This document shows positions 8,609 through 63,317 of a DNA stretch of 64,000 nt, piece after piece. The stretch is from Albimonas pacifica (GTDB taxonomy: Bacteria; Pseudomonadota; Alphaproteobacteria; Rhodobacterales; Rhodobacteraceae): NCBI RefSeq assembly GCF_900113695.1, contig NZ_FOQH01000001.1:496001-560000 (forward strand). Reading direction: 5' to 3'. Both the position numbers and the translations under genes were made by a program. The notes beneath the pieces were generated by a model. The model saw nothing but the letters and a program-made list of their open reading frames with translations. It was not told the origin of the DNA and ran no database searches. Each line of letters begins with the position of its first letter. Position 1 is the stretch's first letter.

Positions 8609-9742
8609 ATGATCACCCGCCGTTCCGCGGGCCGCCTCTGCGCGGCCGCCGTCTGCGCGCTGGGCGCGCTGGGCGCCCTCGCCGCCGCCCCCGCCTCCGC
8701 CAAGGAGCTGCGCATCGTCATCGGCGCGCCGGGCGAAAGCTCGCTCCAGCAGGCGATGCGGATGTTCGCCGAGAAGATCGAGGAGAACACCGGGGGCGAG
8801 TACACCGGCAAGACCTACGAGGGCACGCTGCTGAGCTACGCCGAGTCCACCGCCGGCGTGCGCGACGGCATCGCCGACGTGGCCTACACGGTGCCCGCCT
8901 ACACGCGCGCCGAATTCCCCAACACCAACCTCGTCGTCGACATGGCCACCGCCTCGGACGACCCGGTGGTGATGGCCGCCGCCTCGACCGAGTTCATGTA
9001 TTCCTGCGAGCCCTGCATGAAGGAATACCGCGACCAGAACACCGTGTTCCTGGGCTTCGCGGTGATCGGGCCCTACTACCTGATGTCGGTCGACAAGATC
9101 ACCGAGATGTCCGACTTCCAGGGCAAGACCCTGCGCGGCTTCGGGCCCTTCGGGCGCTGGGTGGACGCGATGGGCGCGACTTCGGTCGTGATCGGCGCCA
9201 CCGACATCTTCGAGGCGATGAACCAGGGCCAGCTTCACGGCAACACCCACACGCTCGACACGCTCAAGTCGCTGTCGATCGGGGAGGTCGCCGACTACAT
9301 CCTCGACGCGCCGATCGGCCTCTACATCGGCAACGCCATGTTCAACACCAACCGCGACCTGTGGGAGGAGCTGACGCCCGAGCAGAAGAAGGGCTTCATC
9401 ATGGCGGCCTCGGATTCCATCGCCTGGGCGACCGTCGACTACTTCAAGGTCAACGCCAGCTACCTCGAGGACCCGGCCTCGGTCGGCGTCGAGGTGGTCC
9501 AGCCCTCGGCCGAGGTCGCGCAGGCCACCGCGACGTTCCGCAAGGCGGACCTGGAGACGGTCGCCGACCTGAACGTGCAGAAGTACGGCATCGCCGACGC
9601 CGAAGCGCAGGTCGCCCGGATGAAGGAGCTGGTCAGGAAGTGGACCGAGATCTTCGCCGGCGTCGACACCACGGACCCGGCGGCGGTGCAGGCGATCTTC
9701 GCCGAGCAGCTGTTCGGGCAGATCGACCCGTCCGCGATCTGA
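8609..9742 (+). CDS. dctP: TRAP transporter solute-binding protein DctP family
   Basis: A 377-aa periplasmic protein. ATG 8609 follows AGGGAGGAG and opens a signal peptide (MITRRSAGRL, then an Ala/Leu core ending ASA-KE near residue 31). The mature part begins ELRIVIGAPGESS and contains the DctP-fold elements GIADVAYTVPAY, LRGFGPFGRWVDAMGATSVVI and LDTLKSLSIGEVADYIL. It captures an organic acid and delivers it to the DctQ/DctM membrane subunits encoded just downstream. A Cys pair (SCEPC, around residue 134) is unusual in the family and could form a disulfide. First gene of an apparent operon that continues into CoA ligase and carboxylase genes. Confidence 0.88.
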   Translation: MITRRSAGRLCAAAVCALGALGALAAAPASAKELRIVIGAPGESSLQQAMRMFAEKIEENTGGEYTGKTYEGTLLSYAESTAGVRDGIADVAYTVPAYTRAEFPNTNLVVDMATASDDPVVMAAASTEFMYSCEPCMKEYRDQNTVFLGFAVIGPYYLMSVDKITEMSDFQGKTLRGFGPFGRWVDAMGATSVVIGATDIFEAMNQGQLHGNTHTLDTLKSLSIGEVADYILDAPIGLYIGNAMFNTNRDLWEELTPEQKKGFIMAASDSIAWATVDYFKVNASYLEDPASVGVEVVQPSAEVAQATATFRKADLETVADLNVQKYGIADAEAQVARMKELVRKWTEIFAGVDTTDPAAVQAIFAEQLFGQIDPSAI

Positions 9743-9764
9743 TCGAGCGGACAGGGAGCGAACC

Positions 9765-10319
9765 ATGCAGGCCATCGGCCGCGTGCTGAACTGGATCTCC
9801 CACGGCGCCGCCTTCGTCGGCGCCGTGGCGGTGGTCCTGATGATGTTCCAGATCGTTCTGGACGTCGTGATGCGGAACCTCTTCCAGGCGCCGGTGCCGA
9901 TGACCACGACCGTCGTCGCGAAGTGGTACATGGTCGCCTGCGCCTTCCTGCCGCTGGCGATGAGCGAGATCGTCAACCGCCATATCGCGGTGGAGGTGGT
10001 GTTCTCGACCCTGTCGAAGCATCGCAAGCGGATCGTGGGCGGCTTCGCCTGCGCGGTGGCCTTCGTGGTGGCCGCCGCCATGGTCCGGCCGTTCTGGTTC
10101 GAGGCGGTCAAGAAATACGAGGCCGGCTCCTTCATCGTCGAGAACGGCCGCCAGCTTCCGGTCTGGCAGACCTACTTCTTCCTGCCCGTCGGCTTCGCGC
10201 TGTTCGCGGCGGTGCTGCTCTACCGGGTCGTGGTGCTGTGGACCGGCGCGAAGAGCGGCCTGGGCGAGACGCCCATCGACGCGGATCCCGAGGCGGATCC
10301 CGCCTCGGAAGGGGTCTGA
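9765..10319 (+). CDS. dctQ: TRAP transporter small membrane subunit DctQ
   Basis: A 184-aa inner-membrane protein with four hydrophobic segments (about residues 12-35, 45-70, 88-108 and 134-155), the standard DctQ layout. The conserved family segment VVLMMFQIVLDVVMRNLFQAP lies in the first helix and following loop. It pairs with DctM and the binding protein in a sodium-coupled uptake system. It begins 22 bp after dctP and ends 4 bp before dctM, so the three genes are co-translated. The last 20 residues are an acidic tail. Confidence 0.87.
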   Translation: MQAIGRVLNWISHGAAFVGAVAVVLMMFQIVLDVVMRNLFQAPVPMTTTVVAKWYMVACAFLPLAMSEIVNRHIAVEVVFSTLSKHRKRIVGGFACAVAFVVAAAMVRPFWFEAVKKYEAGSFIVENGRQLPVWQTYFFLPVGFALFAAVLLYRVVVLWTGAKSGLGETPIDADPEADPASEGV

Positions 10320-10323
10320 GGGC

Positions 10324-11631
10324 ATGGCGAGCGAATACGTCGGCCTGATCGGCCTCGGCATCCTGGTGTTCCTGCTGCTGGCGCGCGTGCCCATCGGCCT
10401 GAGCCTGGTGCTGGTCTCCTTCGGCGGCATCTACGCCCTGATCGGCGCCCGCCCCGCCTGGGGGATGCTGGCGGCGATGCCCTACGACTTCACCTCCAAG
10501 TGGACGCTGTCGTCGGTCCCCATGTTCCTGCTGATGGGCTTCGTGTGCTACCACGCGGGGCTTACGCGAGGGTTGTTCGAGGCGGCGCGAAGCTGGCTCG
10601 CGCGGCTGCCCGGGGGGCTGGCGGTGGCCTCGGTCTGCGGGTCCGCCGGCTTCGCGGCGGTCACGGGATCCTCCATCGCCTGCTGCGCGGCGATGGGGCG
10701 GATCGCGATCCCCGAGATGATGCGCGCGCGCTACGACCCCGCGCTCGCCACCGGCGCCATCGCGGCGGCGGGCACGCTTGGGGCCCTGATCCCGCCCTCG
10801 ATCCTGCTCATTCTCTTCGGCGTCTTCGCCGAGGCGCCGATCTCCAAGCTCTTCATCGGGGGCATCGGGGCCGGCGTGACCACCGCGGTGCTCTACATCG
10901 CGATGATCATGATCCGGGCGAGCCTGAACCCCGCGCTGGCCCCGCGGCTCGACCACCTCCCCCCGATGGAGGAGCGGCTGCGCCACCTGCGCGAGACCTG
11001 GCCGGTGCTGGCGCTGCTGGTGGTCGTGATCGGCGGCATGTTCGTCGGTCTCTTCACCGCCACCGAGGCGGGCGCCGTGGGCGCGCTGGCGGCCATCGTC
11101 ATCGCGCTCGCCAAGCGCTCGCTGACGCTGGGCGGGGTGTGGGAGTCGCTCAAGGAGACCCTGATCACCACCTCGTCGCTGTTCCTGATCGCGATCGGCG
11201 CGAACCTGCTGACGCGGTTCCTGGCGCTGTCGGGGGCGGGGGACTTCATCGCCGACGCGATCATCTCGATCCAGGCGGATCAGCTGACCCTGCTGATCGG
11301 CGTGTCGCTGATGTACCTGGTGCTGGGCATGTTCCTCGACCCGCTGGGGGCGATGCTGCTGACCCTGCCGGTGATGCTGCCGGTGCTCGATCAGGCCAAC
11401 ATCGACATCATCTGGTTCGGCGTGTTCCTCGCCAAGTTCCTCGAGATCGGGATGATCACGCCCCCCATCGGGCTGAACGTCTTCGTCATCAAGGGCGTGG
11501 TGGGGGACAAGGTCCCGCTGACCACGATCTTCCGCGGGATCGGGTGGTTCCTCGCCGCCGACTTCGTGGCCGTGGTCCTGTTCATCGCCTTCCCGGAAAT
11601 CATCACCTGGCTGCCGCAGTTCATGGACTGA
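10324..11631 (+). CDS. dctM: TRAP transporter large membrane subunit DctM
   Basis: A 435-aa membrane protein of 11-12 helices, the usual size for the ion-coupled translocation subunit. Family motifs include LLARVPIGLSLVLVSFGG at the start, FAAVTGSSIACCAAMGRIAIPEM, GTLGALIPPSILLILFGV, FTATEAGAVGALAAI and, near the C-terminus, FLEIGMITPPIGLNVFVIKG. These include the two proline-rich half-site segments of the elevator domain. Only 4 bp separate it from dctQ. The linked CoA ligase 31 bp downstream suggests the imported substrate is a carboxylate that is activated on entry. Confidence 0.9.
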   Translation: MASEYVGLIGLGILVFLLLARVPIGLSLVLVSFGGIYALIGARPAWGMLAAMPYDFTSKWTLSSVPMFLLMGFVCYHAGLTRGLFEAARSWLARLPGGLAVASVCGSAGFAAVTGSSIACCAAMGRIAIPEMMRARYDPALATGAIAAAGTLGALIPPSILLILFGVFAEAPISKLFIGGIGAGVTTAVLYIAMIMIRASLNPALAPRLDHLPPMEERLRHLRETWPVLALLVVVIGGMFVGLFTATEAGAVGALAAIVIALAKRSLTLGGVWESLKETLITTSSLFLIAIGANLLTRFLALSGAGDFIADAIISIQADQLTLLIGVSLMYLVLGMFLDPLGAMLLTLPVMLPVLDQANIDIIWFGVFLAKFLEIGMITPPIGLNVFVIKGVVGDKVPLTTIFRGIGWFLAADFVAVVLFIAFPEIITWLPQFMD

Positions 11632-11662: not shown

Positions 11663-13270
11663 ATGACCTACCATCTCGATCCCCGGATGCCGGCCCCCGA
11701 AGAGATCCTCATCCGCGACCTGATCGACCGCTTCGCCGCCGAGCAGCCCGACAAGACCTACGCCGTCTTCCCCGACATGTCGGAGTGGACCTACGCGCAG
11801 ATGAAGGACCTGGTGGTGCAGACCGCCATCGGCCTCCAGCGGCTGGGGGTGAAGCAGGGCGACCACGTGCTGGTCTGGCTGCCCAACGGACCGGACATCC
11901 TGCGCATGTGGTACGCGCTGAACTACATCGGCGCGGTCAACGTGCCGATCAACACCGCCTACAAGGGCAAGCTGCTGGAGCATGTGGTCGAGAACTCGGA
12001 CGCCGAGCTGATCGTGGTGCACGCGCAGCTCGCCCCCCGGCTCGCCGACATCGACCGCGCGAAGCTCAGGCGCGCGGTGATCCTCGACGGCCCGCCCGAT
12101 CCGGTGGCGGACCTGGAGATGCACCCCGCCGACGCCGTGCTGCCCCAGGGCGGGGAACTGGCGCCGCTGGACCGCCCCATCGCGCCCTGGGACACGATGT
12201 CGATCATCTACACCTCCGGCACCACCGGGCCGTCCAAGGGGGTGCTGAGCAGCTACATGCACCTCTACGCCTCGGCGAAGGTGGCGCAGGTCGAGCCGAC
12301 CGACCGGCAGATGGTGAACCTGCCGATGTTCCACGTCGGCGGCACGTTCCCCTGCTACCGGATGCTGCAGACCGGCGCCTCGCTGTCGATGATCGAGAGC
12401 TTCAGGACCGAGGAGTTCTGGGACGTGGTCCGGCGCACCGGCACCACCTACGTGATCCTTCTGGGCGTCATGGCCCAGTTCCTCGCCAAGCAGCCGCCGC
12501 GGCCCGACGACGCCGACAACCCGCTGCGGCGCTGCCTGATCATCCCCTACGACTTCGACACCCGCCCCTTCGCCGAGCGCTTCGGCGTCGACACCTACAC
12601 CATGTTCAACATGACCGAGATCAGCTGCCCGCTGGTCTCGGAGATCAACTCCACCGTGCTCCACGCCGCCGGCCGCCCGCGCGAGGGCGTGGAGGCCCGC
12701 GTGGTCGACGAGAACGACTGCGAGGTTCCCGTGGGCGCGGTCGGCGAGCTGGTGCTGCGCGCCGACTGCCCCTGGACGATGACCCACGGCTACTACAAGA
12801 ACCCCGAGGCGACCGCGAAGTCCTGGCGCAACGGCTGGTTCCACACCGGCGACGGCTTCCGCACGGACGCGGAGGGCAACTTCTACTTCGTCGACCGCAT
12901 CAAGGACGCGATCCGAAGGCGGGGGGAGAACATCTCCTCCTACGAGGTGGAGGCCGAGGTGCTGGCCCATCCCGACGTCGCCGAGTGCGCCGTGGTCGCC
13001 GTGCGCTCGGAGGTGTCGGAGGACGAGGTGCTCGCCGTCGTCGCCCCCGTGGCCGGCAGGACGCTGAGCGCGGAGGATCTGACGCATTTCCTGCTGCCCC
13101 GCATGGCGCATTTCATGGTCCCGCGCTACGTTCGCATCGTGAACGAGCTGCCGCGCACGCCCACGGCCAAGGTCCGCAAGATCGAGCTGAGGGAGGCCGG
13201 CGTCACTCCCGACACCTGGGACCGGGAGGCCGCGGGCATCCGCGTGCGGCGGGAGAAGATCGGTGCGTGA
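11663..13270 (+). CDS. CaiC-like AMP-dependent acyl-CoA ligase
   Basis: A 535-aa adenylate-forming CoA ligase. Motifs are IIYTSGTTGPSKGV (ATP P-loop), FNMTEIS (A5), GWFHTGDGFRTDAEGNFYFVDRIKD (hinge) and PRTPTAKVRKIEL with the catalytic Lys. The overall pattern, including RRGENISSYEVEAEV, resembles crotonobetaine/carnitine-CoA ligase CaiC and related short, branched-acid ligases. It follows dctM by 31 bp. A CaiB-like CoA-transferase occurs later in the same gene run, which strengthens the Cai-type comparison, but no carnitine dehydratase is present, so carnitine itself is not implied. It probably activates the TRAP substrate. Confidence 0.87.
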   Translation: MTYHLDPRMPAPEEILIRDLIDRFAAEQPDKTYAVFPDMSEWTYAQMKDLVVQTAIGLQRLGVKQGDHVLVWLPNGPDILRMWYALNYIGAVNVPINTAYKGKLLEHVVENSDAELIVVHAQLAPRLADIDRAKLRRAVILDGPPDPVADLEMHPADAVLPQGGELAPLDRPIAPWDTMSIIYTSGTTGPSKGVLSSYMHLYASAKVAQVEPTDRQMVNLPMFHVGGTFPCYRMLQTGASLSMIESFRTEEFWDVVRRTGTTYVILLGVMAQFLAKQPPRPDDADNPLRRCLIIPYDFDTRPFAERFGVDTYTMFNMTEISCPLVSEINSTVLHAAGRPREGVEARVVDENDCEVPVGAVGELVLRADCPWTMTHGYYKNPEATAKSWRNGWFHTGDGFRTDAEGNFYFVDRIKDAIRRRGENISSYEVEAEVLAHPDVAECAVVAVRSEVSEDEVLAVVAPVAGRTLSAEDLTHFLLPRMAHFMVPRYVRIVNELPRTPTAKVRKIELREAGVTPDTWDREAAGIRVRREKIGA

Positions 13271-13308: not shown

Positions 13309-13962
13309 ATGGACGATCACGGCCCCGCACCCGAACCGGAAGCCGGCCCGGTCGTCCTCGGCCCCAAGGAGGAGCGGCGCGAGAAATCCGACCGCCGCAT
13401 GTTGCGCGCGGCCATCGCGCTGATCTCCAAGCACGGCTCGGTGGGGGCCTCGATGGCCCAGATCGGGCTGGACGCGGGCTATTCCCGCGGCCTGCCGGCG
13501 CAGCGCTTCGGCGCCAAGCTCAAGCTGCTGGAGACGGTGGCCGACGTCACGGCGGAGCGCTTCGACCAGCTGGTGGCCGAGCGCACGGCGGGCCTGAGGG
13601 GCCTGGCGGCGCTGGACGCGCGCATCCGCGCGCAGATGGAGGCGGTGCGCGACGCGCCCGAGGCGGCGACGGCCGTCTATCACCTGATGGTCGACGCCAT
13701 CGGCTCGGTCCCCGAGCTGAAGCCCCGCATCGCCGCCCTGCACGAGGGCTACCGCCGCACCATCCGCAAGCATGTGCTGGAGGCCCGCCAGATGGGCGAG
13801 CTGCAGGAGGGCGTGGACGTCGAGGAGACGGTGCGCGCCATCCAGGGCGTGATCTCGGGCCTGTGCCTTCAGGCGCTGATCGCGGGCGACACGGCGCGCC
13901 TGGGCCGCGACGGAGAGGTTGCGGCGAATCTGCTGATCGCGAGCATTCGAAAGACGAGCTGA
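13309..13962 (+). CDS. TetR-family transcriptional regulator
   Basis: A 217-aa regulator. ATG 13309 is chosen because it follows AAGGAGGCGGGAG; an in-frame ATG at 13273 would add 12 basic residues. After a Pro/Glu-rich N-terminal arm of about 25 residues, the helix-turn-helix is MLRAAIALISKHGSVGASMAQIGLDAGYSRG. The ligand domain that follows has no recognised subfamily motif. It lies inside the transporter-ligase-carboxylase run, 38 bp after the ligase and 55 bp before the biotin carrier, so it is the likely local repressor and would be autoregulated if the run is one transcript. Its effector may be the acyl-CoA. Confidence 0.85.
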   Translation: MDDHGPAPEPEAGPVVLGPKEERREKSDRRMLRAAIALISKHGSVGASMAQIGLDAGYSRGLPAQRFGAKLKLLETVADVTAERFDQLVAERTAGLRGLAALDARIRAQMEAVRDAPEAATAVYHLMVDAIGSVPELKPRIAALHEGYRRTIRKHVLEARQMGELQEGVDVEETVRAIQGVISGLCLQALIAGDTARLGRDGEVAANLLIASIRKTS

Positions 13963-14017: not shown

Positions 14018-14239
14018 ATGAGCGAAATCGAGCTGGAGTCCGAGGTGGCCGGCGTGGTCCTGAGCCTGACCGCCGCCGCGGGGGCCACCGTCGCCGAGGG
14101 CGACGAGATCATGGTCATCGAGTCCATGAAGATGGAGATCCCGGTGCTCGCCACCGGCCCCGGCGTGCTGGCCTCGCTGGCGGTCGAGGAGGGCGAGGCC
14201 GTCTCCGAGGGCCAGGTCCTGGCGAGGATCCGCCCGTGA
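14018..14239 (+). CDS. Stand-alone biotin carrier (biotinyl/lipoyl) domain protein
   Basis: A 73-aa protein that is a single biotinyl domain: GVVLSLTAAAGATVAEGDEIMVIESMKMEIPV, then a mirror-image second half ending GQVLARIRP. The biotinylation site is the Lys of ESMKME (Lys34 or so). Its stop codon overlaps the GTG start of the carboxyltransferase gene, so it is presumably the carrier for that subunit. It is shorter than AccB because it lacks the thumb and N-terminal Ala/Pro extension. A glycine-cleavage or lipoyl role is less likely since the lipoyl motif would be DKA rather than SMKM. Confidence 0.87.
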   Translation: MSEIELESEVAGVVLSLTAAAGATVAEGDEIMVIESMKMEIPVLATGPGVLASLAVEEGEAVSEGQVLARIRP

Positions 14240-15825
14240 GCGACCGCAAGCCCCCCGACGCGGCCGCCGAGATGGACGGACTGCTGGAGGCGCTCGCCTC
14301 CGACCGGGCCGCCACGCTGGACGCCGCCCGCCCCGCGGCCGTCGCGAAACAGCGCAAGCGCGCGGGAATGACCGCGCGTGAGCGCATCGCCCACCTGGTC
14401 GACCCCGGATCGTTCCGCGAGGTCGGCCAGCTCGCCCGCGAGGCCGACGCCGCGCCGGGCGAGCGCCCCGCCGACGGCATCGTCACCGGCGGCGCGATGA
14501 TAGAGGGCCGCCCGGCGGTGGTCCTCGCCCAGGATTTCATGACCATGGGCGGCTCCTCGGGCGAGCTTGGCGGCAAGAAGCTGCACATGGCCGTGCGCCG
14601 CTCGATCCGCGAGGGCGCGCCGCTGGTGATGCTGCTCGACGGCGGCGGCCACCGCATCCAGATCGGCCAGAGCTCGCGCCGCTACGCGCCCTCGACGACC
14701 ACCTTCCAGGAGTTCGCGCGCCTCTCCGGCTGGGCCCCGATGGCGGCCGCCATGCTGGGGGCGGGCTTCGCGGCGCCGACCAACTTCGCGGGGCTCGCCG
14801 ACTTCATCGCCATGGTCCGCGGCCAGTCCACGATGGGCCTCGCCGGCCCGGCGCTGGTGAAAGCCGGAACCGGGGAGGACGTCGACAAATTTGAACTCGG
14901 CGGCGCCCAGGCGCAGGTCGACCGCAACGGCATCGCCGACCTCGGGGTCGAGGACGAGGCCGCCGCCCTCGACAGCCTCAAGCGCTTCCTCAGCTACCTG
15001 CCGAGCAACGCCCGCGCGCCGATGCCGATCACCGCGGCCCCTGCGGAAGACCGGTCTCGCGCGGAAGCCCTGCGCGGCCTGGTCCCGGCCAACACCCGAA
15101 AAGCCTACGACGTGCGCCGGGTGATCGACCTGGTGATGGACGAGGGCTCGGTCTTCGAGGTGAAGCCGACCTATGCGAAGAACGCCGTCACCTCGCTGGC
15201 CCGGCTCGCTGGCCGGCCCGTGGGGGTGATCGCGAACCAGGCGATGAGCCTGGGCGGCATGCTCACCGGGCCGGCTTGCGACAAGGTCGCCCATTTCGTG
15301 GCGCTGTGCGACGCCTTCGGCCTGCCGCTGGTCTATTTCATCGACGTCCCCGGCTTCTCGATCGGCTCGCCGGCGGAGAAGGCGCAGCTCGGCCGGCGCT
15401 CCGCCAAACTGATCTACGAGCTGGGCCACGCCACCGTCCCGCGGGTCTCGGTGGTCCTGCGCAAGGGCTATGGCCTGGGCTACGTCGCCATGGCCGGCGG
15501 CCGCAGCTTCGAGGCGGACGCGGCGCTCGCCTGGCCCACGGCCGAGATCTGCGCGATGTCCATCGAGGGCGCCGTCGACGTCGTCAACGCCCGCCGCTTC
15601 GCCGAGATGAAAGCGGCCGGAGAGGACCCCGCGCCCGAGCGCGCCCGCCTGATCGCCCAGATGCGGGCCGAGGTGACCCCCTTCGGCGGCGCCGAGTCCT
15701 TCGGCCTCGACGACATGATCGACCCCGCCGACACCCGCCCCCGCATCATCGAGGCGCTGGAGCGGGCGCCGGCCCGCCGCGACCTCGCCATGCCGCCCAA
15801 GATCCGCTCGATCTGCCCGATCTGA
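14236..15825 (+). CDS. Acyl-CoA carboxylase carboxyltransferase subunit
   Basis: A 529-aa carboxyltransferase of the PccB/MccB type with an N-terminal and a C-terminal crotonase-like half. It moves carboxylate from carboxybiotin to an acyl-CoA. Motifs include RKRAGMTARERIAHLVDPGSFREVG, DGIVTGGAMIEGRPAVV, MLLDGGGHRIQ, DVRRVIDLVMDEGSVFEV, FIDVPGFSIG and VVLRKGYGLGYVAMAGG. The GTG start overlaps the biotin carrier stop by 4 bp. No separate biotin carboxylase gene accompanies the pair, so the carrier must be charged by the biotin carboxylase domain of the large fusion encoded 1.1 kb downstream or by a housekeeping AccC. The N-terminal catalytic half reads DGGGHRIQ rather than the usual SGGARxQE, hinting at an unusual substrate. 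Confidence 0.86.
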   Translation: MSDRKPPDAAAEMDGLLEALASDRAATLDAARPAAVAKQRKRAGMTARERIAHLVDPGSFREVGQLAREADAAPGERPADGIVTGGAMIEGRPAVVLAQDFMTMGGSSGELGGKKLHMAVRRSIREGAPLVMLLDGGGHRIQIGQSSRRYAPSTTTFQEFARLSGWAPMAAAMLGAGFAAPTNFAGLADFIAMVRGQSTMGLAGPALVKAGTGEDVDKFELGGAQAQVDRNGIADLGVEDEAAALDSLKRFLSYLPSNARAPMPITAAPAEDRSRAEALRGLVPANTRKAYDVRRVIDLVMDEGSVFEVKPTYAKNAVTSLARLAGRPVGVIANQAMSLGGMLTGPACDKVAHFVALCDAFGLPLVYFIDVPGFSIGSPAEKAQLGRRSAKLIYELGHATVPRVSVVLRKGYGLGYVAMAGGRSFEADAALAWPTAEICAMSIEGAVDVVNARRFAEMKAAGEDPAPERARLIAQMRAEVTPFGGAESFGLDDMIDPADTRPRIIEALERAPARRDLAMPPKIRSICPI

Positions 15826-15843
15826 CGCGCCGGAGACGTCCCC

Positions 15844-16944
15844 ATGACCCAAGCCCGCCCCGGGCCCCTCGCCGGCCTGCGCGTCGTCGAGATGGCCGCC
15901 ATCGGTCCCGTGCCCTTCGCCGGAACCATGCTCGCCTCGATGGGCGCCGAGATCCTGCGCATCGAGCGCCCCGGCAAGCAGTTCGCGCCCACCGACGTCA
16001 CCGCCCAGGGCCGCGAGTTCGTGACCCTCGACCTCAAGGACCCCGCCGACCAGGCCCGCGCGCTGGACCTGATCGCCGCCGCCGACCTGCTGCTGGAAGG
16101 CTTCCGGCCGGGGGTGATGGAGCGTCTGGGCCTCGGCCCCGACAAGGCCCTCGCCCGCAACCCCGCGCTGGTCTACGGCCGGATGACCGGCTGGGGGCAG
16201 GAGGGGCCGCTGGCCTCGGCCCCCGGTCACGACATCAACTACATCGCCATCACCGGCGCCCTGCATGCCATCGGCACGGCCGAGCGCCCCACCCAGCCGC
16301 TGAACCTGGTGGGCGACTACGGCGGCGGCGCGCTCTACCTCGTGGTCGGCGCGCTGGCGGCGCTGCGCGAGGCCGCCGCCACCGGCCGCGGGCAGGTCGT
16401 CGACGCCGCCATGTGCGACGGCGCGCTGAACCTGCTGCTCCCCTACTCGATGGGCCGCAACACCGGCGGATGGGTGGGAGAGCGGGAGAAGAACCTGCTC
16501 GACGGCGGCGCCCATTTCTACGGGTCGTTCGAGTGCAAGGACGGCAAATTCTTCTCGCTGGGCGCGATCGAGCCGCAGTTCTACGCCGAGTTCCGCCGTC
16601 TCTGCGGGCTGGAGGGTCCGGAGTGGGACGCCCAGCTCGACAAATCCGCCTGGCCCGCGCTGCGCGAGAAGGTGCGGGCGGTGATGAAGACGAAGACGCG
16701 GGACGAGTGGACCGCGATCCTCGAGGGTTCGGACGTCTGCGCGGCGCCGATCCTGGACTACGAGGAGGCGCAGCAGCACCCGCACCTGAAGGCCCGCGGC
16801 GCCTTCGTGGACGGGCCCGCCGGGCCGCAGCCGGCCGCGGCGCCGCGCTTCTCGGGTCACCCGCGGCCTGCGCCTGCGCGACCGCCCGCCGCGCCGCTCG
16901 CCGTTGACGAAGCGCTCGCGCGCTGGACGGATGCGGCGAAATAA
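15844..16944 (+). CDS. CaiB/BaiF family CoA-transferase or 2-methylacyl-CoA epimerase
   Basis: A 366-aa class III CoA-transferase-fold protein. It begins with PLAGLRVVEMAAIGPVPFAGTMLASMGAEILRIERP, in which GPVPFAG matches the alpha-methylacyl-CoA racemase branch (frequently GPxPFC/AxxLADLGAD) more than formyl-CoA transferase. Later motifs are DLKDPADQARALDLIAAADLLLEGFRPGVMERLGLGP and MTGWGQEGP. The gene is 18 bp after the carboxyltransferase. An epimerase would fit a pathway that makes or uses 2-methyl-branched CoA esters, which carboxylases often feed; a CoA-transferase for activation is the alternative. I favour the racemase branch at moderate confidence. Confidence 0.8.
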   Translation: MTQARPGPLAGLRVVEMAAIGPVPFAGTMLASMGAEILRIERPGKQFAPTDVTAQGREFVTLDLKDPADQARALDLIAAADLLLEGFRPGVMERLGLGPDKALARNPALVYGRMTGWGQEGPLASAPGHDINYIAITGALHAIGTAERPTQPLNLVGDYGGGALYLVVGALAALREAAATGRGQVVDAAMCDGALNLLLPYSMGRNTGGWVGEREKNLLDGGAHFYGSFECKDGKFFSLGAIEPQFYAEFRRLCGLEGPEWDAQLDKSAWPALREKVRAVMKTKTRDEWTAILEGSDVCAAPILDYEEAQQHPHLKARGAFVDGPAGPQPAAAPRFSGHPRPAPARPPAAPLAVDEALARWTDAAK

Positions 16945-56064: not shown

Positions 56065-59000
56065 CTAGCCGGCCCTCCCCGGATGCCAGTGGAAGTCGCG
56101 CGCCTCGATGGCCGCGGCGCGCAGGCCGGAGGTCACCCAGGCGCGGGTCTCGGCGGGGTCGATCACCGCGTCGATCTCCAGGAAGCCCGCCATGGTCGTG
56201 GCCTTGCCGACCTCGTAGAGGTGGGCGAGCTTCTCCTGGTAGAAGGCCTCGCGCTTCTCCGGGTCCTCGATGGCCTCCATCTCGCGCCGGTAGCCGAGCC
56301 GCACGGCGCCCTCGAGGCCCATGCCGCCGAACTCGCCCGTCGGCCAGGCGACGGTGAAGACCGGCGCATGGAAGCCGCCCGCGGCCATCGACTGGGCGCC
56401 CAAGCCGTAGCCCTTGCGCAGCACCACGGTGAACAGCGGCACCGAGAGCTTCGAGGCGATGGTGAACAGCGCGGCCGAGGCGCGCATCTGCCCCGCCGCC
56501 TCCGCCTCCGGCCCCACCATGAAGCCCGGCGTGTCGCAAAGCGACAGCACCGGCAGGCCCCAGCGGTCGCAGAGCTTCAGGAACTCGCCGGACTTGCGGG
56601 CGCCCTCGGCGTCCACCGCGCCGCCCAGGTGGCGGGTGTCGTTGGCGACCAGGCCCATGGCGCGGCCCTCGATGCGGATCAGGGCGGTGACCATGCCCGG
56701 CGCGTGGTCGCGCTTCAGCTCGGTGACGCTGCCGGCGTCGGCCAGCGTCTCGATCACCTCGCGCACGTCGTAGGCGCGGCGGCGGTTCTCGGGGATCTTC
56801 CAGCGCAGGAGGCGCTGGTCGGCGGCCTCCCAATGCGCCGCGGGGCCCTGGACGTAGGAAAGGAGGCGCCGGGTCATCTCGGTCGCCGCCTCCTCGTCCT
56901 CGACCACCAGGTCGACGGCGCCGATGGGGGCGAGGGTGGAGACGGGGCCGATCTCGTTGGGCGCATAGACGCCCAGGCCCCCGCCCTCGACCATCGCGGG
57001 GCCGCCCATGCCGATGCAGGCGTTCTTCGTCGCCACGATCACGTCGCAGCAGCCGACCAGCGCCGCGTTGCCGGCGAAGCAGAAGCCGGAGACGACGGCG
57101 ATCATCGGGACCTCGCCCGAGAGGTCCGCGAAGCGGCGGAAGCTGGGCGTGTCGAGCCCGTGGACCATCAGCCCGTCGGTCTCCCCCGGCCGCCCGCCGC
57201 CGCCCTCGCCATAGAGCACCAGCGGCAGCTTCAGGCGGTGGGCGAGCTCCAGCAGCCGGTCCTTCTTCTTGTGGTTCATCCAGCCCTGCGTGCCCGCGAA
57301 GACCGTGAAGTCGTAGGCCATCGCCATCATCTGCGTGCGCTCGGGGCCGTAGAGGTCGGCGTTGACCGTGCCGATGCCCGCCACCAGGCCGTCGGCGGGG
57401 GCCATGTCGATCAGCTCGTCCATGGACCTGCGCTGGCGCTGGGCGGCCAGCGCCAGGGCGCCGTATTCGGTGAAACTGCCCGGATCGCAGAGCTGGGCGA
57501 TGTTCTCGCGCGCCGTGCGCTGGTTGCGCGAGCGGCGGCGCTCGATGGCCTTGGGGCGGTTCTCGTCCAGCCCGCGGGCGTGGCGCTCGATCACCGCGGC
57601 GAGGTCGGGACGGATGGCGTCGAGGTCGATCTCCTCGGCCTCCACCACCGCGGCGCCGGCGGCGTCGGAGGGCTCGATCCAAAGGATCGGGTCGCCCTCG
57701 ACCAGCGCCTCGCCGGCGGCGGCGGCGAGGCGGCGCACGATGCCGGCGGCGTCGGCGGTGACCACATGCTCCATCTTCATGGCTTCGAGGATGGCGACGG
57801 GCTGGCCCTCGGCCACCGCGTCGCCCTCGGCGATCTCGAGCGAGGCGAGGACGCCGGTGAGGGGGGCGGGAAGGGGCGCCGTGCCCTCCGGCCCCTCGGC
57901 GGCGGGCTTCGCGGGGCCGGGGGCGGCGGAGGCGGGCAGGGCGGGCGCGTCGGCCATCTGGGCGATGACGGCGCCCGCGATCTCCTTGACCCAAGACGTG
58001 TGGACGGCGTTGCGGGCGACCTCCGGGCGGGCGAGCAGGCCCGCGAGGAACGGCGCGTTGGTCTGCACGCCGGCGATGCGGAATTCGCCCAGGCTACGGG
58101 CGGCGCGGGCGATGGCGGCCGGGAAGCCGAGAACCGCGGAGCGCACGATCAGTTTCGCGAGCAGGCTGTCGAAGCGCGGGTTGATCTTCATCCCCGCGAA
58201 GCCCTGGCCGTCGACGCGCACGCCGGGGCCGGTCGGGGGCTCGTAGAGCGCCAGCGTCCCGCCCTGGGGGCGGCTCTCGCCGGTCGGCGTCATCGTCTCG
58301 GCGTTGACGCGAAGCTGCACGGCGTAGCCGGGGCGCAGGGCAGGGGGCTCGGTCAGCGACAGCGAGGCCAGCGTCTCGCCGCCCAGCAGCAGGATCTGCG
58401 TGGCGACGAGGTCGAGGCCGGTGACCTCCTCGGTCACCGTATGCTCGACCTGGAGGCGGGGGTTGGCCTCCATGAAGTGGAACGTCTCAGGATCGTCGAG
58501 GTCGACCAGGAACTCGAAGGTGCCGAGGCCGCGGTAGCCCACGGCGCCCGCGATCTGCAGGGCGGCCGAGAGGATCGCCTCGCGCAGACCGGGCGCCAGG
58601 TCGGGGGCGGGGGCGATCTCGACCAGCTTCTGGCCCTGGCGCTGGAGGGTGCAGTCGCGCTCCCACGCGTGGACCACGGCCGAGCCGTCGCCGATCACCT
58701 GCACCTCGATATGGCGGGCGCGCCTGACCAGTTTCTCGGCGTAGAGGGACCCGTCGCCGAAGGCGCCGAGCGCCTCGGAGGCGCAGCGGGCGTAGGCGTC
58801 GGTGACCTCGCCGGGCGCCTCCACGGCGCGCATCCCGCGCCCGCCGCCGCCGGCGACGGCCTTGATCATGGTGGGGCCGTGGGCCTCGACGAAGGCGCGC
58901 ACGGCGTCCTCGGAGGCGCCGCCCGGAAGACCCGGCAGCAGGGGCACGCCCAGCTCGGCGGCCAGCGCCCGGGCGGCCGACTTGTCGCCCAGCCGCGACA

Positions 59001-59328
59001 GGATCTCGGCCGACGGCCCGATGAAGACGATCCCGGCGTCCGCGCACATCGCGGCGAAACCGGCGTTTTCCGACAGGAACCCGTAGCCCGGGTGGATCGC
59101 GTCGCAGCCGGCCGCCTTCGCGGCCTCGATCACCGCGGCCTTGTCGAGATAGGCGGCGGGGCCCGTCCCCTCCAGCGCGCGGCAGGCGTCGCCGGCGCGG
59201 GCGTGCAGCGCCTCGGCGTCGTCGGCGGAGGCGAGCGTCACCGCCCGCAGCCCGAGGTCGGCGGCCGCCCGCGCAATGCGGATGGCGATCTCTCCACGGT
59301 TGGCGATCAGGATCGAGCGGATGGGCAT
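56065..59328 (-). CDS. Single-chain acyl-CoA carboxylase (BC-BCCP-CT fusion), second copy
   Basis: A 1087-aa paralogue of the fusion at 16976-20263. Biotin carboxylase is at about 1-445 (ILIANRGEIAIRIARAA, KAVAGGGGRGMR, MEANPRLQVEHTVTEEVTGLD). The biotinyl domain is at about 480-550 with EAMKME and target Lys518. The two-part carboxyltransferase is at about 585-1087 (RTARENIAQLCDPGSFTEYG, YGEGGGGRPGE, LPVLSLCDTPGFMVGPEAE, VVLRKGYGLGAQSMAAGGF). It makes a carboxylated acyl-CoA from an acyl-CoA, bicarbonate and ATP. It sits between the LIV binding protein and livG, an unusual place for a biotin enzyme. Substrate unknown; the acyl-CoA synthetase two genes upstream presumably makes it. Confidence 0.92.
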   Translation of the reverse strand: MPIRSILIANRGEIAIRIARAAADLGLRAVTLASADDAEALHARAGDACRALEGTGPAAYLDKAAVIEAAKAAGCDAIHPGYGFLSENAGFAAMCADAGIVFIGPSAEILSRLGDKSAARALAAELGVPLLPGLPGGASEDAVRAFVEAHGPTMIKAVAGGGGRGMRAVEAPGEVTDAYARCASEALGAFGDGSLYAEKLVRRARHIEVQVIGDGSAVVHAWERDCTLQRQGQKLVEIAPAPDLAPGLREAILSAALQIAGAVGYRGLGTFEFLVDLDDPETFHFMEANPRLQVEHTVTEEVTGLDLVATQILLLGGETLASLSLTEPPALRPGYAVQLRVNAETMTPTGESRPQGGTLALYEPPTGPGVRVDGQGFAGMKINPRFDSLLAKLIVRSAVLGFPAAIARAARSLGEFRIAGVQTNAPFLAGLLARPEVARNAVHTSWVKEIAGAVIAQMADAPALPASAAPGPAKPAAEGPEGTAPLPAPLTGVLASLEIAEGDAVAEGQPVAILEAMKMEHVVTADAAGIVRRLAAAAGEALVEGDPILWIEPSDAAGAAVVEAEEIDLDAIRPDLAAVIERHARGLDENRPKAIERRRSRNQRTARENIAQLCDPGSFTEYGALALAAQRQRRSMDELIDMAPADGLVAGIGTVNADLYGPERTQMMAMAYDFTVFAGTQGWMNHKKKDRLLELAHRLKLPLVLYGEGGGGRPGETDGLMVHGLDTPSFRRFADLSGEVPMIAVVSGFCFAGNAALVGCCDVIVATKNACIGMGGPAMVEGGGLGVYAPNEIGPVSTLAPIGAVDLVVEDEEAATEMTRRLLSYVQGPAAHWEAADQRLLRWKIPENRRRAYDVREVIETLADAGSVTELKRDHAPGMVTALIRIEGRAMGLVANDTRHLGGAVDAEGARKSGEFLKLCDRWGLPVLSLCDTPGFMVGPEAEAAGQMRASAALFTIASKLSVPLFTVVLRKGYGLGAQSMAAGGFHAPVFTVAWPTGEFGGMGLEGAVRLGYRREMEAIEDPEKREAFYQEKLAHLYEVGKATTMAGFLEIDAVIDPAETRAWVTSGLRAAAIEARDFHWHPGRAG

Positions 59329-59442: not shown

Positions 59443-60642
59443 TTACTGCACCAGCGGGCAGCCGCCCTCTTCGAGGGTCTGGAACGCCTCGCCGTCCTCG
59501 AGCGTGCCGATGCGGGTCAGCATGTCCCACTCGCCCGAGGAGTCGCCCGGCGCCTTCACCTGGTAGAGCGAGAAGTCCCGCATCACCCGGCCGTCCTCGC
59601 GGACCGTCGCGCCCTTGGTGTAGAAGTCCTCGACCGGCATCTCGCGCATCTTGGCGGCGACGGCCTCGGCCTCGGTGGTGCCGGCGGCCTCGACGGCCTT
59701 GAGGTAGTGCAGCACCGAGCCGTAGACGCCCGCCTGCATGCCGTTGGGCATCTCGCCGGTCTTGGCCTTGTAGCGCTCGGCCATCGCCCGGGTCTCGTCG
59801 TCCTGGTCCCAGTAGAAGGTCTCGGCGAGGTAGAGGCCCTGCGCCGCGGTCAGGCCCAGGGCCTTGATGTCGTTGACGAAGATGATGAAGCCGGCCATCG
59901 CCTGGCCCTGCTCGGTCACGCCGAACTCGGCCGCCTGCTTGATGAAGGTCACCAGGTCGCCGCCGGCCAGCGCCAGCCCGATGGTCTTCGCGCCCGAGGC
60001 CTGGGCCTGCAGGATGAAGGACGAGAAGTCCGCCGTGCCCAGGGGCGCGTTGACCTGGCCCAGCACGGTGCCGCCCGCGGCCTCGGTGAACTTGCGCGCG
60101 TCGTCGGCCAGCGCGTGGCCGAAGGTGTAGTCGGCGGCCACGATGAACATCGTATCCGCGCCGGACTCGACGACCGACTGGGCGATGGTCTTCGACAGGG
60201 CGAAGGTGTTGTAGACCCAGTGGAAACCGGTCTTCGAGCAGGCCTCGCCGGTCAGCGCGTTGGTGCCGGCCGAGGTCGAGATGTTGACCTTGTTCTTCTC
60301 GGTCGAGATCCCGCGCACGGCGAGCGCGACCGAGCTGTTGCCGAGCCCCGTGATCATCTCGACCCCGTCGACGTCGTACCACTTGCGCGCGATCGAGGCG
60401 CCGACGTCGGCCTTGTTCTGGTGGTCGGCCGACAGCACCTCGATCGGCCGGCCGAGCACCGTGCCGCCGAAGTCCTCGACCGCCAGCTCGGCGCCGGCGA
60501 CGGAGTTCGCGCCGGTGATGTCGGCGTAGACGCCCGACATGTCCTCGAGCACGCCGATGCGCAGCGGCTCCTGCGCGTTGGCGGCGCCCCAGCCGCCCAG
60601 CGCGAACGCGGCGAGCGCCGCGCCCATAAGGGTGCGTTTCAT
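59443..60642 (-). CDS. LivK/type I ABC periplasmic binding protein
   Basis: A 399-aa binding protein. ATG 60642 opens a signal peptide (MKRTLMGAALAAFALGGWGAANA, cut near residue 23). The mature protein begins EPLRIGVLEDMSGVYADITGANSVAGAELAVEDFGG, the classic start of type I periplasmic ligand-binding proteins, with KWYDVDGVEMITGLGNSSVALAV and DFSSFILQAQASGAKTIGLALAGGD later. Two Cys (ACSKTG and GGCPLVQ at the very end) could pair. It supplies the LivHM permease downstream. Relatives bind aromatic acids or other carboxylates as well as amino acids. Confidence 0.88.
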   Translation of the reverse strand: MKRTLMGAALAAFALGGWGAANAQEPLRIGVLEDMSGVYADITGANSVAGAELAVEDFGGTVLGRPIEVLSADHQNKADVGASIARKWYDVDGVEMITGLGNSSVALAVRGISTEKNKVNISTSAGTNALTGEACSKTGFHWVYNTFALSKTIAQSVVESGADTMFIVAADYTFGHALADDARKFTEAAGGTVLGQVNAPLGTADFSSFILQAQASGAKTIGLALAGGDLVTFIKQAAEFGVTEQGQAMAGFIIFVNDIKALGLTAAQGLYLAETFYWDQDDETRAMAERYKAKTGEMPNGMQAGVYGSVLHYLKAVEAAGTTEAEAVAAKMREMPVEDFYTKGATVREDGRVMRDFSLYQVKAPGDSSGEWDMLTRIGTLEDGEAFQTLEEGGCPLVQ

Positions 60643-60695: not shown

Positions 60696-62276
60696 TCAGC
60701 CCGCCGACGCGGTCGCGCCGGTGTGGACGGCGGTCTCCTCTCCGCCATGGACCCGGCGCAGCTCCCGCTTGAGGATCTTGCCCGACGCGTTTCGCGGCAG
60801 GTCCTCGACGAAGATGATGCGCTTGGGGATCTTGTAGTGCGCGAGGCTTTTCTTCGCGTGCGCGATCAGCTCGGCCTCCGAGGGGGCGTGACCCTCCTTC
60901 AGCACCACCATCGCGGCGATCGCCTCGAGCCATTTTTCGTCCGGCAGGCCGACCACGGCGACCTCGAAGACGGCCTCGTGGGTGAAGAGCACGTCCTCCA
61001 CCTCGCGGCTCGCCACCAGCACGCCGCCGGTGTTGATCACGTCCTTCACCCGGTCGACGACATAGAGGAAGCCTTCCTCGTCGAAGCGGCCCATGTCGCC
61101 GGTGTGGAACCAGCCGTTCTTGAACGCCTCGTCGGTGGCGTCCTCGCGGTTCCAGTATTCGGTGATCACGTGGGGGGTGCGGTGGACGATCTCGCCGGTC
61201 TCGCCGACGGGGACGTCCTCGTCGTTCTCGTCCACGACCCGGGTCTCGACGTTCAGCACCGGGCGCCCGCACGAGGTCAGGCGGCCGTCATGCTCCTCGG
61301 GCTTGAGCACGGTGGCGAGCGGCCCCGTCTCCGACTGGCCGTAGCAGTTGAAGACGCGCGCGCCGTTGAGGCGCTTGCGCAGCTCCACCAGGATCGGCTC
61401 GGGCATGATCGAGGCGCCGTAGTAGACCTTGTTGAGGCTCGAGAGGTCATGGGCGTCGAAGCCCGGGTGGCGCAGCAGGCCCACCCACACCGTCGGCGGC
61501 GCGAAGAACGAGGTGATCCGGTTCTCCTCGATGCAGCGGAACACGTCCTCGGGCTTGGGCTGCTCGAGCAGCGCGCAGGTCGAGCCCACCATGATCTGGG
61601 GGTTCGAGAAGGTGTGGATCTGGCCGGAGTGGTAGAGGGGCAGGGACCACAGGCAGCGGTCCGTTTCCACGTATTCCAGCGCGTGGATGCAGGAGTAGAA
61701 CTCCGCCATCAGCGCGCGGTGCTTCATCAGCCCGCCCTTGGGCTTTCCGGTGGTGCCCGAGGTGTAGAGGATCTGGACGTAGTCGTCCTCGGTCACGTCC
61801 CACTCGCGCTCGGGGTCCGTGGTCCCCTGGGCGGCGGCCATCACGTCGATCTCGTCGCCGCCGTCGAAGGCCGAGAGGAAGTCGAGCCCCGCGACCGGCC
61901 CCATGTCGTCGACCGAGCCCTTCAGCGCGCGGTCGTAGACCAGGGCGCGCGCGCCCGACTGCTCGACGATGTATTTCAGCTCCGGACCCGTCAGGCCGTA
62001 GTTGGCCGGCACGTGGATCAGGCCGGACTGGGCGCAGGCCAGCCACAGCAGGTAATAGGCGTCGGAGTTGCGCGCGAAGGCCGCGACCCGGTCGCCCTTG
62101 CGCAGCCCCGCGTCGCGCAGGTGGGTCGCGATGCGGAAGGCCGCCGTCTCCATCTCCGCGTAGGACCAGGTGCGGTCGCGGAAGATCAGGGCGTCCTTCC
62201 TGGGGTTGCGGGCCACGGCGCGGCGCAGGCCGTCGCCGATGCCGTTGCGACCGGCGCGGGCGCGAAGATCGATCAT
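60696..62276 (-). CDS. AMP-dependent acyl-CoA synthetase
   Basis: A 526-aa adenylate-forming ligase, ATG 62276 after GGGAGG; a longer in-frame start has no ribosome site. P-loop ILYTSGTTGKPKGGLM, A5 NCYGQSETG, hinge GWFHTGDMGRFDEEGFLYVVDRVKDVINTGGVLVASREVE and catalytic C-terminal NASGKILKRELRR. Resembles fatty-acyl or short-chain CoA ligases such as those in malonate- or methylmalonyl-type and FadD13-like groups. It is 53 bp upstream of the binding-protein gene and part of the same operon; it presumably activates the imported acid for the carboxylase. Confidence 0.88.
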   Translation of the reverse strand: MIDLRARAGRNGIGDGLRRAVARNPRKDALIFRDRTWSYAEMETAAFRIATHLRDAGLRKGDRVAAFARNSDAYYLLWLACAQSGLIHVPANYGLTGPELKYIVEQSGARALVYDRALKGSVDDMGPVAGLDFLSAFDGGDEIDVMAAAQGTTDPEREWDVTEDDYVQILYTSGTTGKPKGGLMKHRALMAEFYSCIHALEYVETDRCLWSLPLYHSGQIHTFSNPQIMVGSTCALLEQPKPEDVFRCIEENRITSFFAPPTVWVGLLRHPGFDAHDLSSLNKVYYGASIMPEPILVELRKRLNGARVFNCYGQSETGPLATVLKPEEHDGRLTSCGRPVLNVETRVVDENDEDVPVGETGEIVHRTPHVITEYWNREDATDEAFKNGWFHTGDMGRFDEEGFLYVVDRVKDVINTGGVLVASREVEDVLFTHEAVFEVAVVGLPDEKWLEAIAAMVVLKEGHAPSEAELIAHAKKSLAHYKIPKRIIFVEDLPRNASGKILKRELRRVHGGEETAVHTGATASAG

Positions 62277-62484
62277 CGATGTCCTCCCTTGGGACCGCCG
62301 TCTGCGGGCGGTTGCGGCGGGACCATGGCGCAACGCGCGGCGCGCGTCACGACCTGCCGGCCGTTCGACTGACGAGAAAAGACGCCGCAAGGCGCGGCGG
62401 GGTCGACGGTCACGTCGCTTTTCCTCCCAGGGCGCGGGGGCGTCGCGCCCGCTGCCCGGGCGTCGCGTCCTCCGTCGTTGTCGT

Positions 62485-62501
62485 CCGCGATATAGTCGCG
62501 G
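62485..62501. promoter_or_regulatory. CCGCGA-N5-TCGCGG operator-like palindrome
   Basis: Perfect 6-bp arms around TATAG, directly after the TetR stop and 209 bp before the acyl-CoA synthetase start. The AT-rich centre favours an operator for the neighbouring repressor over a terminator; a terminator remains possible. Confidence 0.4.
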
Positions 62502-63317
62502 TTAGGATTTGCTAGCGGCGAGCATATTTTGTTGCGCCGAGTCGTCAAGCGTCTCTTTCCGCGACGAACCCGCCGGGCCGCCGCCTGCGCCCGGGCGCGA
62601 GCCGGCCGAGGCCACCTCGAACGGCACGCCGAGGGCGGCCAGCACCAGGGTCTCCATCCGGGCGGCGATCGTCTCGGGGCTCTCGGGCCCGTCGGGGCTG
62701 AACCAGTTGAACGGCCAGGTGAGCATGCCGGTGACGGTCTGGTTGGCGATCGAGGCGTCCTCGAACCGGAACACCCCCGCCTGGCGCCCCTGCTCCAGCA
62801 GGTGGTGCAGGGCGCGGGCGAAGCGCTGACGGTCGGCGCGCAGCCGCTCGTAGATCTCGGGGGGGAGCTGCTTGCCCTCCACGAACAGGATCGAGAGGAA
62901 CTCGCGCTCCTCGATCACCCGCAGGCACATCTCGCGCACGAAGCGGCGGAAGCGGGTCAGCACGTCCTCGTCCGAGTGGGCGAGCGCGCTTTCCGCCAGA
63001 TCCGCCGACATCACCGAGGTCTGGGCGCAGATCGCGGTCAGCAGCTCCAGCTTCGAGGCGAAGTGGTAGTAGATGAACGGCGGCGTGACCCCGAGCTCGG
63101 CGGCGATGTCGGAGATCTTGGTGCGCGTGTAGCCGTTGCGGAAGAACAGCGTGGCGGCGGTCTTGAGCACCAGCTCCTTCTTGAACGCGTAGGCGGCCGA
63201 GCGCGCCGGCGTGCGGCCGCCGCCGCGGCGCAGGCCCGGCGGCGGGCGACCGACGGGGGCGTGCGGCCGCGGCGCGGCGCCGGCTGGGTCTTCGGTGGGG
63301 CGGGGATCGTCGGTCAT
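62502..63317 (-). CDS. TetR-family transcriptional regulator
   Basis: A 271-aa repressor. ATG 63317 gives a Pro/Arg-rich N-terminal arm of about 40 residues, then LVLKTAATLFFRNGYTRTKISDIAAELGVTPPFIYYHFASKLELLTAIC, a typical TetR helix-turn-helix. A long C-terminal tail after residue 245 is Gly/Ser-rich and likely disordered. It is first in the minus-strand gene order of module 2 and is divergent from the outer-membrane gene. Likely represses the ligase, transporter and carboxylase genes behind it. Confidence 0.87.
   Translation of the reverse strand: MTDDPRPTEDPAGAAPRPHAPVGRPPPGLRRGGGRTPARSAAYAFKKELVLKTAATLFFRNGYTRTKISDIAAELGVTPPFIYYHFASKLELLTAICAQTSVMSADLAESALAHSDEDVLTRFRRFVREMCLRVIEEREFLSILFVEGKQLPPEIYERLRADRQRFARALHHLLEQGRQAGVFRFEDASIANQTVTGMLTWPFNWFSPDGPESPETIAARMETLVLAALGVPFEVASAGSRPGAGGGPAGSSRKETLDDSAQQNMLAASKS

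Follow-up and report, generated by a model that had tools for sequence, protein, structure and literature searches.

A single-chain long-chain acyl-CoA carboxylase (LCC) is represented by PDB entry 4rcn, reportedly from Tran et al. in 2015. Two gene runs, each with an LCC, an importer and a CoA ligase, are described here in a window of 64,000 nucleotides of Albimonas pacifica DNA (contig NZ_FOQH01000001.1, positions 496,001 to 560,000). Module 1 has a TRAP importer and module 2 a LIV-type ABC importer. LCCs are described as rare, with a proposed role in carbon and nitrogen metabolism, and they accept acyl-CoAs from C2 to C16, the Km being far lower for palmitoyl-CoA (PMC6491548, available part); transporters and ligases are unmentioned in that part. 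Among other biotin-dependent carboxylases, propionyl-CoA carboxylase (PCC) and acetyl-CoA carboxylase (ACC) carboxylate the alpha carbon, while the gamma carbon is the target of methylcrotonyl-CoA carboxylase (MCC) and geranyl-CoA carboxylase (GCC), both built from alpha and beta subunits (PMC4673880, available part). Acyclic terpene/leucine utilization (Atu/Liu) resembles the two modules in being catabolic and in using a biotin-dependent carboxylase that works on a CoA ester.

The carboxylases of modules 1 and 2, LCC1 and LCC2, have biotin carboxylase (BC), biotinyl and carboxyltransferase (CT) domains in one chain of about 1,090 residues (Pfam), which is the make-up of a single-chain LCC. 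They are 52% identical; the initial annotation called them paralogous. LCC2 matches 4rcn over its whole length (residues 4-1067, 1059.5 bits) with the same domain order, BC, biotin carboxyl carrier protein (BCCP), CT. In contrast to the LCCs in the available part of PMC6491548, those of the window are encoded with importers, ligases and a racemase. Unlike GCC and MCC they are single chains. The CT domain of LCC2 scores 630 bits with 5fif and 611 with 4rcn, followed by 12S transcarboxylase (229), PCC-beta (202), MCC (131) and GCC (127). The stand-alone CT of module 1 scores 325-343 bits with ACC/PCC-beta and 12S entries, 192 with MCC and 178 with GCC. PCC and 12S transcarboxylase are therefore among its nearest solved relatives, but unlike PCC it has no adjoining biotin carboxylase subunit, and its run also contains an LCC, a racemase and a TRAP system. 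Since it is the PCC/12S lineage, and not MCC/GCC, with which both carboxyltransferases score, carboxylation in both modules would most likely occur at the alpha carbon. An Atu/Liu-like gamma-carboxylation is disfavoured by the same lineage, and no hydratase or lyase is called in the modules.

The CaiB-family gene of module 1 was considered as a CoA-transferase and is now assigned as an alpha-methylacyl-CoA racemase. Its PDB matches to such racemases reach E ~1e-104, compared with 1e-30 for the next kind of entry, and it keeps H126, D156 and E241 of MCR, which we take to be the catalytic residues (alignment, positions counted by hand). In contrast to MCR, its gene sits between a carboxyltransferase and an LCC. 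The DctP of module 1 retains R176, presumably the conserved carboxylate-binding Arg of TRAP binding proteins. Nothing direct on LCC-transporter linkage or on an LCC substrate was found in the literature searched, where most subscription papers were missing. Every part belongs to a known family, and the arrangement is undescribed as far as that literature shows.

On balance, both runs look like uptake-coupled catabolic entry modules around a single-chain LCC. The importer sets are complete: DctP with its conserved Arg, DctQ and DctM in module 1, and a binding protein, two permeases and two ATPases in module 2. The periplasmic binding protein would capture an organic acid and its own permease would import it, after which the AMP-forming ligase would make the CoA ester of that acid. 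In module 1 the racemase, with its catalytic residues in place, may set the C2 stereochemistry. The LCC, joined in module 1 by the extra carboxyltransferase and biotin carrier, would then add a carboxyl group, most likely at the alpha position, either to this CoA ester or to a short acyl-CoA formed from it. The substrates are probably soluble branched or substituted monocarboxylic acids. Long-chain fatty acids are disfavoured as the physiological substrate since small soluble molecules are what TRAP, LIV and Opp systems import.

The theme recurs in the host genome (G000, 6.02 Mb; handles with G, C, L and f denote genomes, contigs, loci and families). It has four LCC genes, and all four follow or adjoin a co-directional transporter: one TRAP, one LIV and two of the Opp/Dpp type. 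LCC3 (C32) comes after OppD, OppF, two SBP_bac_5 proteins, OppB and OppC, and before a carboxyltransferase. LCC4 (C37) comes after SBP_bac_5, OppB, OppC, OppD and OppF, and before a CoA ligase. Two more loci repeat the theme without an LCC: L021 (G000:C35:176001-194000) has DctPQM, a carboxyltransferase, SBP_bac_5, a carrier and a ligase, and L015 (G000:C32:466001-482000) has a carboxyltransferase, SBP_bac_5, a ligase, a second carboxyltransferase, a carrier and TetR. In both, no Opp permease is called beside the SBP_bac_5 binding protein. Transporters are numerous in this genome, with 31 DctM genes (34 matches, of which three are pieces of one and one is below the cut-off), about 25 LIV-type permease pairs (52 matches, some possibly other permeases) and 29 SBP_bac_5 genes. 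With 83 systems entered (31 DctM, about 25 LIV, 27 Opp), any one gene has a chance of 0.24 of a transporter within 6 kb, and four of four genes a chance of 0.003, under a rough null that ignores operon structure.

Both gene orders are retained in the same-genus genome G1018 (L205, L225), where the LCCs are 94% and 95% identical to those of the window. The module genes are not chance open reading frames, since each has a family match and both orders are retained. The G1018 modules lie at C18:181837 and C18:345144. The closeness of the two modules within 55 kb had been taken as a signal; it is not a conserved feature, because about 160 kb separates them in G1018.

Across genomes, LCCs are uncommon. 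At a threshold of E<=1e-150, matches occur in 30 of 395 genomes of the host family (hereafter the family), nine of the 30 being short-frame matches to separate carboxyltransferases, in 57 of 387 class genomes and in 48 of 397 phylum genomes. These searches scored the two best candidates per genome, and further LCCs may be missed. LCC-centred regions represent a chosen subset of the matching genomes plus 13 of 17 named LCC loci; L031, L034, L039 and L040 were dropped as short, partial or apparently duplicate records. The linkage count leaves out L177, which has no single LCC gene model, and the family count leaves out the same-genus L205 and L206. Of 63 biotin-carboxylase control loci, 24 have no usable central gene and 39 were used. 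LIV systems were marked by permeases and binding proteins and not by LivG/F, because the latter picked up other ABC ATPases.

In the family, 13 of 21 LCC loci from other genera (19 genomes) have a permease of the TRAP, LIV or Opp kind no more than 6 kb from the LCC. The corresponding counts are 8/54 in the rest of the class, 3/15 in the rest of the phylum, 2/13 among named loci and 26/103 over all LCC loci. In the controls, such a permease lies this close to 14/73 central genes from 26 random regions (3/26 when counted by region) and to 3/39 loci of other biotin carboxylases. By Fisher tests the family linkage exceeds that of random genes (p=0.0003), of random regions (p=0.0004) and of other biotin carboxylases (p=1e-5). 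A permease in the same co-directional run is found in 8/21 family, 4/54 class, 1/15 phylum and 2/13 named loci; the family value differs from the 9/73 of random genes (p=0.012, Fisher). TRAP alone accounts for 6/21 family loci at a chance of 0.096 per locus (p=0.012), a rate taken from 557 DctM matches in about 91 Mb over 20 genomes. The picture of two transporters, TRAP and LIV, proved too narrow, because Opp/Dpp-type ABC systems are a third class and the commonest outside the family (8/82, vs 3 TRAP and 2 LIV).

Ligases occur in the fetched regions of 36/104 LCC loci, compared with 2/26 random regions (p=0.004) and 1/63 biotin-carboxylase loci, and CaiB-type genes in 13/104 LCC loci compared with 0/89 controls. 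CoA-transferase family III proteins of about 750-820 residues are found near the LCCs of L025, L171, L172, L208 (with two domains), L250 and L011, and the racemase motif is absent from those tested. L167, L175, L176 and L182 have a LIV-type binding protein opposite in strand to the ligase-LCC pair, with TetR and no LIV permease called in the fetched region; these binding proteins are 70-94% alike. In L114 (G101) the LCC, split into two frames of 298 and 818 residues, adjoins a TAXI-type binding protein and a long TRAP permease that is probably a fusion.

The proteins encoded beside LCCs tend to belong to particular subfamilies. Seventeen of 23 LCC-near OppAs fall into a single subfamily, with best matches of 55-93% that are in part between members of one genus. 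It spans families f1, f147, f78, f67, f197 and f201 and a named Bradyrhizobium, and two CT-module OppAs join it at 46% and 64%. The other six are of a general type (L112, L145, L213) or form a separate group (L142, L144, L148). Among background OppAs, ten of them from the host genome, 10 of 11 have a best match of at most about 32%. The DctP of module 1 shares 56-58% identity with its counterpart in L123, a locus of family f33 with an LCC at only 51% to LCC1, and 47% with those of L108 and L210; background values are at most about 30%, and the DctPs of L107, L110, L129 and L183 are of other types. Its DctM is 73% identical to L123, 68-67% to L210/L108, 58% to Marinobacter L035 and 56% to L113/L021, after which values, those of background DctMs included, are at most about 43%. 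The binding protein of module 2 reaches 48% with L119 and 43% with L162, and at most 28% with other linked ones outside the genus and with three background proteins. Ligases cluster at 48% identity into three groups (12, 7 and 6) whose members come from several families and are all LCC- or CT-module ligases, and racemase relatives (51-55%) lie near the LCCs of L119, L124, L133 and L134.

Trees were built from 110 LCCs (quick, with L114 and L177 left out) and from 30 LCCs (careful). In the careful tree the TRAP-linked LCC1 falls in a clade of 11 rows (support 100/99) with the Opp-linked L206/LCC3, L208, L212, L213 and Haematobacter LCCs, the pair L107 and L207, and L211, which has no transporter. 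L107 (TRAP) is sister to L207 (LIV). LCC2 groups with L119 (TetR-LivK-LCC-ligase) in the quick tree (98), and this grouping is unresolved in the careful tree. The transporter class changes at least 13 times over all linked rows and 8 times over the 30 rows with subfamily-type partners, with states assigned by hand and no shuffle test. The importer is an exchangeable part: related LCCs in the family are paired with TRAP, LIV or Opp/Dpp systems. What we infer most strongly is that ligase and LCC are often a functional pair, to which importers of exchanged classes have been added in the family.

Searches from the binding proteins lead back to LCCs in part. The OppA of LCC3 has relatives at E<=1e-110 in six of 387 class genomes, and all six, from three of three genera, have a full-length LCC match; the two are co-located in G000, G318 and G396. 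A plasmid search with OppA gave 7 records and 10 places, of which the best place per record was inspected. Haematobacter pOT1-2 has a CoA-transferase, LCC, GntR, OppDFABC and ligase. Plasmid relatives of the module-1 DctP are present in 54 records, of which 46 are Pseudosulfitobacter, and the two inspected Pseudosulfitobacter records have the order TetR-LCC-ligase-DctPQM. An Acuticoccus plasmid has a ligase-LCC pair with an unannotated DctP adjoining. The remaining seven DctP records are at 30-32% identity, and neither of the two inspected has an annotated carboxylase.

The genes of the window were found with a home-made codon-usage caller and Pfam/NCBIfam scans (Table 1). Module 1 has the order dctP-dctQ-dctM, CoA ligase, TetR, biotin carrier, carboxyltransferase, racemase and LCC1, with intergenic gaps of -4 to 55 bp. 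This run is intact where the initial annotation placed it, but it had been under-described: the carrier, carboxyltransferase and racemase were overlooked, and probably an upstream ligase too. Besides LCC1, only the carrier and the carboxyltransferase represent biotin-dependent functions here, and no separate biotin carboxylase subunit is called beside them. The upstream ligase (6731-8464) is 53-64% identical to LCC-adjacent ligases of other genera and falls in a cluster of 12 members that are all LCC-linked, in a comparison with four background ligases. It probably belongs to module 1, because its nearest relatives in the comparison are these LCC-adjacent ligases, despite a possible operator between it and dctP. 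That palindrome, TTGGTGGTTGACCAA, keeps its core TGGTTGACCA in G1018 and resembles FadR/GntR-type operators, though module 1 encodes a TetR regulator. The second ligase (11663-13270) falls in a cluster of seven, every one linked to an LCC or CT module. An alkyl sulfatase-type metallo-hydrolase (20391-22325) lies right after LCC1 on the opposite strand.

Module 2 has the order TetR, CoA ligase, LIV-type binding protein, LCC2, livG, livF and two permeases, and it is intact and composed as first described. A gap of 225 bp separates TetR from the ligase. The carboxylase had been reported as fused start to stop on both sides; this holds towards livG, where the LCC2 stop and the livG start are contiguous (0 bp), but not towards the binding protein, from which a gap of 114 bp separates it. 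The nearest solved relatives of this binding protein, 3i09 and 3n0w, have general names only. Beside module 2, GC content is up to 79% at 48001-52000, which covers a called gene of 657 residues (49995-51968) adjoining a FecR-domain protein (51965-52606). Between the modules, a DctP-type binding protein (34077-35099) adjoins a flavin monooxygenase-like gene (35164-36609), with no DctQ/DctM identified among neighbours that were partly scanned.

Table 1. Features of the two modules, with positions in the window
Feature	Coordinates	Strand	Basis
AMP-forming acyl-CoA ligase (type B)	6731..8464	+	Pfam AMP-binding; 144 bp 5' of dctP
Palindrome, candidate operator	8528..8542	+	Spacer 5' of dctP; 0.22 expected in window, one mismatch allowed
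dctP, TRAP solute-binding protein	8609..9742	+	Pfam DctP E=3.5e-22, matched on longer ORF 8513-9742
dctQ, TRAP small permease	9765..10319	+	Pfam DctQ
dctM, TRAP large permease	10324..11631	+	Pfam DctM; TIGR00786 above cut-off
AMP-forming acyl-CoA ligase (type A)	11663..13270	+	Pfam AMP-binding
TetR-family regulator	13309..13962	+	Pfam TetR_C_13, TetR_C_6
Stand-alone biotin carrier protein	14018..14239	+	Pfam Biotin_lipoyl; ESMKME motif in sequence
Stand-alone carboxyltransferase, PCC-beta/12S lineage	14236..15825	+	Pfam Carboxyl_trans E=1.4e-115
Alpha-methylacyl-CoA racemase (CaiB superfamily)	15844..16944	+	PDB alpha-methylacyl-CoA racemases, E ~1e-104
LCC1, single-chain long-chain acyl-CoA carboxylase (BC-BCCP-CT)	16976..20263	+	Pfam biotin carboxylase, biotinyl, carboxyltransferase domains
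livH/M-type permease	52752..53720	-	Pfam BPD_transp_2, on longer ORF 52752-54425
livH/M-type permease	53717..54598	-	Pfam BPD_transp_2
livF ATPase	54615..55319	-	Pfam ABC_tran, on longer ORF 54615-55376
livG ATPase	55312..56064	-	Pfam ABC_tran, BCA_ABC_TP_C
LCC2, single-chain long-chain acyl-CoA carboxylase	56065..59328	-	Pfam; PDB 4rcn LCC
LIV-type binding protein	59443..60642	-	Pfam Peripla_BP_6, on longer ORF 59443-61272; PDB 3i09 353 bits
AMP-forming acyl-CoA ligase	60696..62276	-	NCBIfam NF006182 fatty acyl-CoA synthetase, 718.9 bits vs cut-off 663
TetR-family regulator	62502..63317	-	Pfam TetR_C_24, TetR_N

Several observations weigh against uptake-coupled entry modules. Transporter enrichment beside LCCs, one of the expectations by which the initial annotation was to be tested, is seen within the family and is absent outside it, where linkage is 13/82 compared with 14/73 for random genes within 6 kb (p=0.78) and 7/82 compared with 9/73 in the same run (p=0.85). 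The random control is small, with 26 regions of which six are from the family, and the locus counts are not independent because the loci are related to each other. Four of the 13 linked family loci have general-type transporters that may be chance neighbours (DctP in L107 and L110, OppA in L112 and L213). The OppA operon is away from the listed LCC in G174, G283 and G364, and six of the seven plasmid OppA relatives have no annotated carboxylase within 9 kb, although two of the six have a ligase. For the LIV-type binding protein of module 2, relatives are present in 322 plasmid records; four were fetched, three of these are annotated, and none of the three has a carboxylase, so that the LIV link to LCCs is weak. 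The module-1 DctP has a CxxC at 133-136 that is found in 0 of 14 comparison DctPs, but the signature (CxxC, RW) is ruled out as LCC-specific by its wider occurrence, which includes acyl-CoA catabolic clusters without an annotated carboxylase in Sulfitobacter alexandrii and Salipiger abyssi. Only four background ligases, plus the one at 30664-32295 in the window, entered the ligase comparison. In it the module-2 ligase has its G1018 ortholog as sole partner and joins no wider cluster of LCC-linked ligases. No CoA ligase is called in the LCC3 run, and neither module has a called next enzyme for a malonyl-type product. The idea of a modular import, activation and carboxylation pathway accordingly has support within the family, with four instances in the host genome, and does not extend as a general enrichment beyond it.

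A fairly improbable alternative is that carboxylation comes late. The imported acid would be activated and degraded by enzymes encoded elsewhere, and the LCC, with the module-1 carboxyltransferase and carrier, would fix CO2 onto the released propionyl-CoA or another short acyl-CoA as an inducible anaplerotic step. The PCC/12S lineage of the module-1 carboxyltransferase fits this order of events, as does the release of propionyl-CoA from 2-methyl-branched acids, which the racemase suggests and which is general biochemistry. The range of C2 to C16 acyl-CoAs on which LCCs act is also consistent with it (PMC6491548, available part). However, other biotin carboxylase/carboxyltransferase loci in the host genome could supply a PCC, and no beta-oxidation genes are called within the two runs.

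It is less probable still that the genes are neighbours without a shared pathway, in a catabolic island rich in transporters and ligases where linkage follows from gene density and shared regulation. In the window there are other CoA ligases (the one at 30664-32295 among them), a dioxygenase, an acyl-CoA dehydrogenase and a further DctP; the transporter density of the genome is high, as the per-gene chance within 6 kb indicates; and linkage outside the family is at background. Against this stand the linkage of every host LCC, the gene order retained in G1018, and the fact that the ligases, OppA, DctP and DctM encoded next to LCCs in different families resemble each other at subfamily level.

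The reverse direction, in which the importers would take substituted malonates or similar diacids, the ligase would make the CoA ester, the carboxyltransferase and carrier would remove or transfer the carboxyl, and the racemase would make both C2 forms usable, is very unlikely: it is suggested by the carrier and carboxyltransferase of module 1 without a stand-alone biotin carboxylase, by the match of that carboxyltransferase to 12S transcarboxylase and by the mention of decarboxylating carboxyltransferases and a malonate carrier in the available part of PMC6491548, but both LCCs have all biotin carboxylase domains, from which ATP-dependent carboxylation is expected, and module 2 has no extra carboxyltransferase or racemase.

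Uptake-coupled entry modules, if extended beyond the window, would tentatively make LCCs, at least in the family, the core of a modular assimilation, though this broader view is more doubtful than the reading of the two runs themselves. Mostly alpha-branched exogenous acids would be captured by dedicated binding proteins, CoA-esterified by LCC-adjacent ligase subfamilies and carboxylated directly as the first committed step, and the ligase-LCC core would have been kept through many replacements of the importer by non-homologous systems. If true, this would show clearly that importers without common ancestry can be exchanged around an enzymatic core that is conserved. The structure of LCC is solved and its role is unsettled; the adjacent importers, ligases and racemase narrow the search for its substrate, which would otherwise cover all acyl-CoAs, to soluble acids that identifiable proteins bind. 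The question of the role of LCC is thereby made testable by binding assays and deletions in cultured bacteria.

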